Assembly (NCBI GenBank): GCA_030057915.1
Contig: JASGUC010000026.1
Location: forward strand, 1 to 45,056
Source: Pseudomonadota bacterium
GTDB taxonomy: Bacteria; Desulfobacterota; Syntrophia; Syntrophales; UBA8958
DNA: 45,056 bases
Reading direction: 5' to 3'
This document shows positions 18,564 through 22,355 of this stretch, one piece after another. Numbering within the stretch: the first letter of the stretch is position 1; each line of letters begins with the position of its first letter. The position numbers were made by a program, and so were the translations under genes. The notes beneath the pieces were generated by a model. It saw only the letters and a list, made by a program, of their open reading frames with translations, did no database searches and was not told where the DNA came from.

Positions 18564-18670
18564 GGCCCCCTTCATTTCGTCAGCACGAATTTCTGCACCA
18601 CCATGTCCAGCCTTTTGCCCATGAGAAATTCCACCTTGGCCCCCTTCATTTCGTCAGCACGAATTTCTGC
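18564..18670. repeat. 33-bp duplication of the substrate-binding protein gene tail
   Basis: A perfect 33-bp repeat (18564-18596 and 18638-18670) covers the stop and last codons of the adjoining minus-strand gene. Downstream of the true stop the copy reads, in frame from a GTG, VEFLMGKRLDMVVQKFVLTK then TGA. So the gap contains what looks like the last 20 codons of a second version of the gene end. Confidence 0.75.
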
Positions 18671-20361
18671 TCTTCCTTGGGAACGTGCCACTTGATGAAG
18701 TTGTGGGTGATCCCCTGGGGGGCCGGATCGACGCCCCGGAACCGGGCGCTGATGATGGGCAGGGCGTCAGGGACATACAGGAAGAGGTAGGGCTGCTCCT
18801 CGGCCAGGATCTCCTGGATCCGATCATAGCACTTCTTACGTTCCTTCTCGTCGAAAACCTCCCGGCCCCGCTCGATGAGTCGGTCCACCTCGGCGTTTTT
18901 ATAGGAGATGAAGTTCAGCTCATCGGGCCCGGTCTTGCTGGAATGCCAGACGTCGTGGAGGTCTGGATCCTGGGGGATCGACCAGCCGAGAATCGTCGCC
19001 TCGAAGCGCCGCTTGTTGATGAAATCGTTCACGAAGGCCGCCCATTCCAGGATCCGGATCTTGACCCTGATCCCCACATCGGCCAGTTGCTTCTGGATGA
19101 TCTCGGCGCATTTCGCCCGTATTTCGTTGCCCTGGTTGGTGATGATTTCGAAGGCGAAGGGTCTGCCGTCCTTGTCCAGGATGCCGTCGCCGTCGCTGTC
19201 TCTCCAGCCCGCCTCCGCCAGGAGGGATTTGGCCCGTCCGGGATCGTAGGGATAGGTACGCACCTGATCGTTGTAGGCCCAGGTCCCGGGCTTGTACGGC
19301 CCCGTCGCCGGCTGCCCCAGACCCAGCAGCACCCCCCGGATCATCTCCTCCTTGTTGACGGCGTAGGCGATGGCCTGCCGGACGCGCTTATCGGCGAAGA
19401 GGGGATTCTTCAGATTGTAGCCCATATAGACGTAGGAAAAGGAAAGATAGCGGTATTTGCGGTAATTCTTGCGGAAGAGGTTGTTTTCCGTCTGCCGGGT
19501 GTACTGGAGAGGCGTCAGTCCCATCTGATCGATGCCGCCGGCCCGCAATTCGAGAAACATCGTGGCCGTGTCGGGGATGATTCGCATGATGTAGCCATCG
19601 AGGTAGGGTCGGCCCTCGAAGTAATCGGGATTGGCGGCCAGGACGATCTTTTGCCCCGCCACCCATTCCCGGAACCGGTAGGGTCCCGTGCCGATGGGCC
19701 GCCGGGAAAGGGGCGAGGCGGCGATGTCCCGGCCGGACAGAAGATGGCGGGGCAGGATGGCGGCGCCCCAGCTCATGAGGGCCGGGGCGAAGGGCTTGTC
19801 GTAGGAGATGCGGAGGGTGTGATCGTCCAGGATCGAGACCTTCCTGACCTTCAGGAAATCCCCGGAGTAGGCGGTGGGCGTCTTGGGATCGATGGTGACC
19901 TGATAGGTATATAGGACGTCCCGGGCGGTGAAGGGTTCGCCGTCGTGCCACTTTACCCCTTTGCGGAGGCGGAAGAGGATGTGGAGCCCGTCGGGCGACA
20001 CCTCCCATGATTCGGCCAGATCGCCGACAATCTTCAGGTTCCGGTCGTATTTCACCAGGCCGTTGTAAACCAGGCCGCCAATCTGGTGGGAGGTGGCGTC
20101 GCTGGAGAGGAGGGGGATGAGGTTGCTGGCATCGCCGATGGAACCCTCGACGATGATGTCTCCGTATGCCGGCGCCGCCCCGGTGACGGCGTGCGGGGGG
20201 GGCTCCGGCGCCTCTTTCCCGCAGGCAAACAGAAACGGCAATGCGCTGATCATGACGGCTGCCGCCATGAGGCGGCGAAGGAATGACCGGGTAGTACCCC
20301 TTTCCCCTGTCCTGGTCCCGGGCGTCTCCGCGGGTGAAAGCGTATAACTGCGGGCTGACAT
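18646..20361 (-). CDS. peptide/nickel-type ABC transporter substrate-binding lipoprotein
   Basis: About 571 residues. A basic N-terminus, a hydrophobic stretch (AAAVMISALPFLF) and the lipobox FACG with Cys47 indicate a lipid-anchored periplasmic binding protein. The body is a family 5 solute-binding protein (DppA/OppA type): LAESWEVSPDG, FRLRKGVKWHDGEPFTA, and NPDYFEGRPYLDGY are characteristic. The ligand could be peptides, nickel or something else. No permease or ATPase genes are next to it, so it is an orphan here. The start is uncertain: ATG 20361 gives a long leader, and an internal ATG 15 codons before the lipobox Cys gives a normal one. MITE copy B lies upstream. Confidence 0.85.
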   Translation of the reverse strand: MSARSYTLSPAETPGTRTGERGTTRSFLRRLMAAAVMISALPFLFACGKEAPEPPPHAVTGAAPAYGDIIVEGSIGDASNLIPLLSSDATSHQIGGLVYNGLVKYDRNLKIVGDLAESWEVSPDGLHILFRLRKGVKWHDGEPFTARDVLYTYQVTIDPKTPTAYSGDFLKVRKVSILDDHTLRISYDKPFAPALMSWGAAILPRHLLSGRDIAASPLSRRPIGTGPYRFREWVAGQKIVLAANPDYFEGRPYLDGYIMRIIPDTATMFLELRAGGIDQMGLTPLQYTRQTENNLFRKNYRKYRYLSFSYVYMGYNLKNPLFADKRVRQAIAYAVNKEEMIRGVLLGLGQPATGPYKPGTWAYNDQVRTYPYDPGRAKSLLAEAGWRDSDGDGILDKDGRPFAFEIITNQGNEIRAKCAEIIQKQLADVGIRVKIRILEWAAFVNDFINKRRFEATILGWSIPQDPDLHDVWHSSKTGPDELNFISYKNAEVDRLIERGREVFDEKERKKCYDRIQEILAEEQPYLFLYVPDALPIISARFRGVDPAPQGITHNFIKWHVPKEEQKFVLTK

Positions 20362-20415
20362 AACGCCGCCGATCCTAATGGAAGAAGCCGACATTTGCAA
20401 TGGCTAAGATCGCCA

Positions 20416-20519
20416 CAGGGTAAATTTGTTCTCAATGTAAGTAGTTGATCTTGAATGATCTACTAAAACTGAGGCACATCCTGTTTTAAGCCACTTAGAG
20501 ATAGAACAAATTTACCGTG
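20416..20519 (-). mobile_element. 104-bp MITE, copy B
   Basis: It starts CAGGGTAAATTTGTTCTC and ends AACAAATTTACCGTG and is the same element as at 4835 and 44129, in opposite orientation. The flanks are 10-bp direct repeats with one mismatch (AAGATCGCCA at 20406-20415, AATATCGCCA at 20520-20529). It lies between the binding protein gene and the cimA leader, 18 bases before a TTGACA. Confidence 0.85.
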
Positions 20520-20537
20520 AATATCGCCACATTTATG

Positions 20538-20563
20538 TTGACAAAAGATCCGTAACGGATTAA
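20538..20563 (+). promoter_or_regulatory. probable promoter of cimA leader
   Basis: TTGACA at 20538-20543 is a consensus -35 box. The -10 is poor: GATTAA (spacing 14) or TAAGGG (spacing 17). The position, 40-50 bases before the leader peptide start, suits the attenuator, but the -10 cannot be fixed by eye. Confidence 0.35.
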
Positions 20564-20590
20564 GGGGAGCGACCGGATAAGGAATGTACC

Positions 20591-20671
20591 ATGAACGGCA
20601 GGAAACTGAACACGATCGTCGGCATCATTATTATCATCGGCATAATTAGGCCGGAAAATACCGGGGCCTGA
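20591..20671 (+). CDS. isoleucine-rich leader peptide (cimA attenuator)
   Basis: A 26-codon ORF with AAGGA 7 bases upstream of its ATG. It encodes MNGRKLNT followed by IVGIIIIIGII, then RPENTGA and stop: eight isoleucines, seven of them within an eleven-residue run. The stop overlaps CCGGGGCCTGAT (20661-20672), which can pair with the 5' arm and loop of the terminator downstream. A ribosome waiting for charged isoleucine tRNA in the run would leave that segment free to form an antiterminator. This is the design of ilv and leu leader peptides, here placed before citramalate synthase. Confidence 0.85.
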   Translation: MNGRKLNTIVGIIIIIGIIRPENTGA

Positions 20672-20711
20672 TCGTGGTTTAGTGTCTGGACAAGAAATAG
20701 GAAAACTCACA

Positions 20712-20749
20712 AAATCCGCTATCAGGTTCCCTGGTAGCGGATTTTTTTT
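20712..20749 (+). terminator. attenuator terminator before cimA
   Basis: A 15-bp stem (AAATCCGCTATCAGG / CCTGGTAGCGGATTT, one G-U pair) with loop TTC is followed by eight T in a row (20742-20749). It ends 16 bases before the cimA start codon and just before its GGGAGGA ribosome site, so it must be bypassed for expression. The sequence 20721-20734 can instead pair with 20661-20672. Confidence 0.9.
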
Positions 20750-20765
20750 CGGGAGGAAGACAGTT

Positions 20766-22355
<1,590 letters not shown>

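Follow-up and report, generated by a model that had tools for sequence, protein, structure and literature searches.

Ribosome-mediated transcription attenuation is a known mechanism for the control of his, leu, thr and ilv genes. In the gammaproteobacterial his, thr, leu and ilvGMEDA attenuators, a leader peptide carrying control codons, a set of alternative 1:2, 2:3 and 3:4 pairings and a terminator are found before the first gene of the pathway. In PMC3766115 amino-acid attenuators are treated as largely gammaproteobacterial, and isoleucine/valine attenuators are missing from its Rfam set. For Corynebacterium ilvBNC and other actinobacterial ilv and leu operons, a branched-chain leader peptide followed by a terminator is also reported to precede the biosynthetic genes (PMC11857589, PMC10272879, PMC1262725), the target in Corynebacterium being ilvB and not cimA as in the present case. 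In a class related to that of the organism studied here, leuA of Geobacter and Pelobacter, which belongs to the same enzyme superfamily as cimA, is likewise controlled by tRNA charging, but through a leucine T-box, in which the RNA binds the tRNA directly and without a leader peptide, and the target is again leuA and not cimA (PMC2494555).

The locus analyzed here lies within a stretch of 45,056 nucleotides (the window), and a preliminary description of it had proposed an isoleucine attenuator upstream of its cimA gene. The citramalate route to isoleucine, which starts with CimA, replaces threonine deaminase in many anaerobes, and CimA and LeuA are often confused by automatic annotation. The anatomy of the locus is that of the gammaproteobacterial systems, but whereas these have ilvG/ilvB, leuA or his genes as targets, here the target is cimA, the leader is nearly Ile-only and the lineage is a different one. 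No cimA attenuator was found described in open-access full text, and an earlier prediction is possible in Lopatovskaya et al. 2010 (Mol Biol 44:128, cited in PMC4833913). The mechanism is known, whereas the cimA target and the lineage appear undescribed in the literature searched.

The cimA gene and its surroundings

The features of the region are the following:

18646–20400, minus strand: oligopeptide-binding lipoprotein gene, divergent from cimA
20538–20566, plus strand: likely promoter, TTGACA (20538–20543), 17-nt spacer and TAAGGG (20561–20566), assigned from the sequence and from relatives
20579–20583, plus strand: Shine-Dalgarno-like AAGGA of the leader ORF, assigned from the sequence, 7 nt 5' of the ATG
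20591–20671, plus strand: leader peptide ORF, ATG to TGA, 26 codons, MNGRKLNTIVGIIIIIGIIRPENTGA
20615–20647, plus strand: control codons, 8 Ile in 11 residues (four ATC, three ATT, one ATA)
20599–20688, plus strand: segment 1:2 hairpin (anti-antiterminator) of the ribosome-free RNA, in the MFE and centroid structures
20661–20677, plus strand: segment 2, at the end of the leader ORF, resembling the terminator 3' arm (CCTGAT) and pairing with segment 3
20711–20726, plus strand: segment 3, the terminator 5' arm, with segment 2 (pairing through 20735) or segment 4 as partner
20711–20749, plus strand: intrinsic terminator, 16-bp stem, 3-nt loop and eight-T tract (20742–20749)
20751–20758, plus strand: Shine-Dalgarno of cimA, GGGAGGAA in the sequence
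20766–22355, plus strand: cimA, (R)-citramalate synthase, 529 aa (TIGR00977)

The product of cimA scores 744.9 bits against the NCBIfam model TIGR00977 (cut-off 450), and only 240.3 bits against the LeuA model TIGR00973, below its cut-off of 598.7; every LeuA model scores it far under the respective cut-off. The preliminary description had taken the leader as confirmation that the enzyme is CimA and not LeuA; the identity is supported, but it rests on TIGR00977, and the leader simply agrees. The gene is present in a single copy in the window's genome, and the closest named CimA record is that of a metagenome-assembled Syntrophus aciditrophicus (L004), with 81% identity, so that the organism is probably a Syntrophus-like representative of the Syntrophales. 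No threonine deaminase (IlvA) reaches the TIGR01127 cut-off of 378.75 in this genome, where the best match has 53.8 bits, and because of this citramalate is probably the sole route to 2-oxobutyrate, and hence to isoleucine, in such a way that cimA would be the only entry to the pathway, which fits its control by Ile.

LeuA (TIGR00973) was not detected above cut-off in the window's genome, nor in 6 of the 7 other members of the genus searched, nor in several other members of the order. One member of the genus (G074) has a LeuA, but nothing in it matched CimA at E ≤ 1e-100. The window's genome also encodes a protein of 629 aa (L002:979-2868, in G000:C22) whose N-terminal domain is homocitrate/isopropylmalate-synthase-like and which has additional sequence at its C-terminus; it lies under all NCBIfam cut-offs, has similar-scoring relatives in most genomes searched, and could be a Re-citrate synthase.

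Just 5' of the cimA promoter, positions 20416–20519 hold an element of around 104 bp that is bounded by terminal inverted repeats, the 27-nt arms of which are 81% complementary. The genome contains at least 40 more copies of it, 93–97% identical and dispersed, several of them flanked by imperfect direct repeats of around 9–11 bp, so that the element looks like a recently amplified MITE.

Leader peptide, terminator and alternative pairings

The 26-codon leader that had been proposed to stand immediately before cimA was found as such, with ATG, TGA and a Shine-Dalgarno-like site at a distance of 7 nt. Its 11-residue core, IVGIIIIIGII, is the Ile run noted before, although it contains eight Ile and not seven. 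The −10 hexamer of the likely promoter is weak, and a generic promoter/terminator scan listed neither this promoter nor the terminator, the T tract of which overlaps the stem. Of 83 relatives, 79 have a TTGAC[ATG] motif followed by a spacer of 16–18 nt and a −10 of the form xAxxxx at a fixed position 5' of the leader, and in 72 the spacer is exactly 17 nt.

The terminator arms (20711–20726 and 20730–20745) pair with 94% Watson-Crick pairs plus one G-U. The eight T of the preliminary description were recovered, and the stem measured 16 bp instead of 15. The competing pairing described between 20661–20672 and 20721–20734 is also real and somewhat longer, as it extends over 20661–20677 with 20717–20735; this 2:3 antiterminator duplex has a calculated energy of −28.0 kcal/mol, compared with −23.2 kcal/mol for the terminator hairpin, and that of the 1:2 duplex is −25.6 kcal/mol. 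The RNA from 20591 to 20760 folds with z = −4.0, and none of 200 shuffled sequences was equally stable.

Folding was modelled in three states, in which the ribosome was stalled on the Ile run, had reached the stop codon or was absent. For the stalled state, RNA polymerase was placed at 20733 and the A-site at 20615, 20624, 20630, 20636, 20642 or 20645. Both expected conformations were obtained: with the stalled ribosome, the probability of the 2:3 pairing was 0.94–1.0, whereas a ribosome at the stop codon covered segment 2 and gave the terminator with a probability of about 1, and in the absence of ribosome the 1:2 hairpin formed and then the terminator, also with a probability of about 1. In the full-length RNA at equilibrium the model favours the terminator whether or not a ribosome is stalled, and therefore the switch needs kinetic control, with 2:3 forming first, as is also the case for canonical attenuators.

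Retention and codon content of the leaders in related genomes

The cimA loci of relatives were anchored by their best-scoring tblastn match. The search for an Ile-rich ORF plus terminator upstream of orthologous cimA genes, suggested in the preliminary description as a check, gave a positive answer: of the 87 cimA genes in the order, 74 are preceded by an Ile/Leu/Val-rich leader and a terminator, a number that rises to 78 if the cut is loosened slightly. In most of the others the Ile run is thinner, the contig is truncated or the leader has been deleted. Ile-rich cimA leaders are general in the order of the window's genome. A few neighbouring families in the phylum carry mixed Ile/Leu/Val leaders upstream of cimA, and the scan used detected no leader before the remaining cimA genes sampled from the same and other phyla. 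In two loci (L124 and L157) the promoter-like site and the terminator are kept upstream of cimA while the leader ORF is gone, which may be an assembly error or a natural deletion; by the attenuator model, strong termination is expected in them.

Such an arrangement is hardly produced by chance. None of 435 dinucleotide-shuffled upstream regions contained an Ile/Leu/Val-rich ORF followed by a terminator. Of 2992 other windows taken from the same loci as background, 4 did, and three of these are Leu leaders before leuA. As assessed by codon-run pattern searches over all frames and both strands, five consecutive Ile codons occur once in the 2,848,064-base genome, in the cimA leader. A second match from another codon-run search (C57) is not a leader, and overlaps the end of a cysteinyl-tRNA synthetase-like gene.

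The pairings were retained as well. Among 81 related loci, the 2:3 complementarity had a median z of −3.5, with z below −2 in 91% of them, whereas the 1:2 complementarity was weaker (median −1.7; below −2 in 42%). In an alignment of 76 distinct sequences, analyzed with column-shuffled and slid controls, the 2:3 helix was paired in 89.1% of the cells and the 3:4 helix in 90.9%, compared with 85.5% after shuffling in both cases (with a maximum of 86.6% for 2:3); compensatory changes were found in both helices, and both were far above the slid controls.

Regarding codon content, the leader cores of the order add up to 484 Ile, 35 Leu and 10 Val. At 83 related loci, 31% of the Ile codons in the leaders are ATA, compared with 16% in the cimA genes, an excess that suggests that the rarer isoacceptor is preferred. 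When cimA is followed by tsaC (n = 45) or leuC (n = 9), the leader is close to Ile-only; leaders gain Leu codons when leuA directly follows cimA, and Val and Leu codons when ilvD does so. A leuA gene located 300–480 nt away is preceded by a Leu-rich leader of its own, together with a second terminator (L164, L167, L170, L173 and L175), and the stand-alone leuA genes of the order have Leu leaders too. The ilvB gene of the window's genome (G000:C31:57504, L210) is preceded by the leader MKNKLIVPGMVVVVVVPGGTAARCF and a terminator, an anatomy equal to that of cimA but with six Val codons instead of Ile, and in control of acetolactate synthase; no other six-Val-codon run is present in this genome.

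The rule that partner codons are present when the partner gene has joined the operon holds in 75 of the 79 loci on the CimA tree. With leader type scored by a terminator-anchored label, 3 independent contrasts were supported, 2.6 of them in the same direction and 0 in the opposite one (sign test, p = 0.25). Because there are only three phylogenetically independent contrasts and they are not significant, these sequence comparisons leave the dependence of leader codons on the operon partner as suggestive and unproven. Still, we lean towards a picture in which the attenuators are branch-specific (Ile for cimA, Leu for leuA, Val for ilvB) and in which the codons of the cimA leader are rewritten when leuA or ilvD joins the operon.

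Attenuation model and alternative explanations

All the mechanical parts of an attenuator are present upstream of cimA, exclude each other in the folding models and are retained in related genomes, the 1:2 pairing less clearly than the others. These data support that the leader is a ribosome-mediated transcription attenuator which couples cimA expression to charged tRNA-Ile, a reading to which we assign a probability of around 0.93. Stalling, termination, read-through and the response to isoleucine in the cell are what we infer from them, as follows. When Ile-tRNA is plentiful, the ribosome would pass the Ile codons and reach the stop codon, covering segment 2, in such a way that the 3:4 terminator would form and transcription would end before cimA. 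When it is scarce, the ribosome would stall on the Ile run and cover segment 1, so that segments 2 and 3 could pair ahead of the synthesis of segment 4; the terminator would then not form and cimA would be transcribed. In a leader that is not translated, 1:2 would form, followed by the terminator.

Given its hydrophobic Ile run and its ribosome-binding site, the ORF could encode a functional small hydrophobic (membrane) peptide and be followed by a plain intergenic terminator. We consider this very unlikely, as the peptides diverge almost wholly, even within the order, and keep only their Ile density, their composition varies with the operon partner, and in almost every locus the end of the ORF shows complementarity to the terminator arm. 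In addition, no plain terminator is needed at 20711–20749 because the upstream gene (18646–20400, minus strand) diverges, and there is no incoming transcript. Even less probable is that a T-box (tRNA-binding) or a metabolite riboswitch governs the terminator and the ORF is incidental, although leuA is under T-box control in two other deltaproteobacterial genera, Geobacter and Pelobacter (PMC2494555). The leader RNA has only about 180 nt, filled by the ORF and the 1:2, 2:3 and 3:4 pairings, and the runs of Ile codons are retained. Moreover, no Rfam family matched at gathering score, and up to an E value of 10 there were only sub-threshold matches to leaders, those of his (RF00514, 28.8 against a gathering score of 49) and thr (RF00506, 17.6 against 55), with neither the leu leader (RF00512) nor the T-box (RF00230) being listed.

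A different question is whether sensing by the leader extends to all branched-chain amino acids (Ile, Val and Leu) instead of being limited to Ile. The peptide does hold one Val and one Leu besides its 8 Ile, and the homologous leaders outside the order are Ile/Leu/Val mixtures; on the other hand, 8 of the 11 core residues are Ile here, and Ile-only cores are the usual ones where cimA is found without leuA or ilvD, so that general sensing seems unlikely for this locus.

The attenuator proposed for cimA would link the citramalate route to the charging of Ile-tRNA in a syntrophic lineage for which little is known about regulation, and its leader peptides could be of aid in separating CimA from LeuA. 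As leader composition is diverse across related operons, comparisons among them can be used to test how attenuator specificity has evolved, and, if the branch-specific picture is true, these leaders would be natural experiments on how such specificity evolves.
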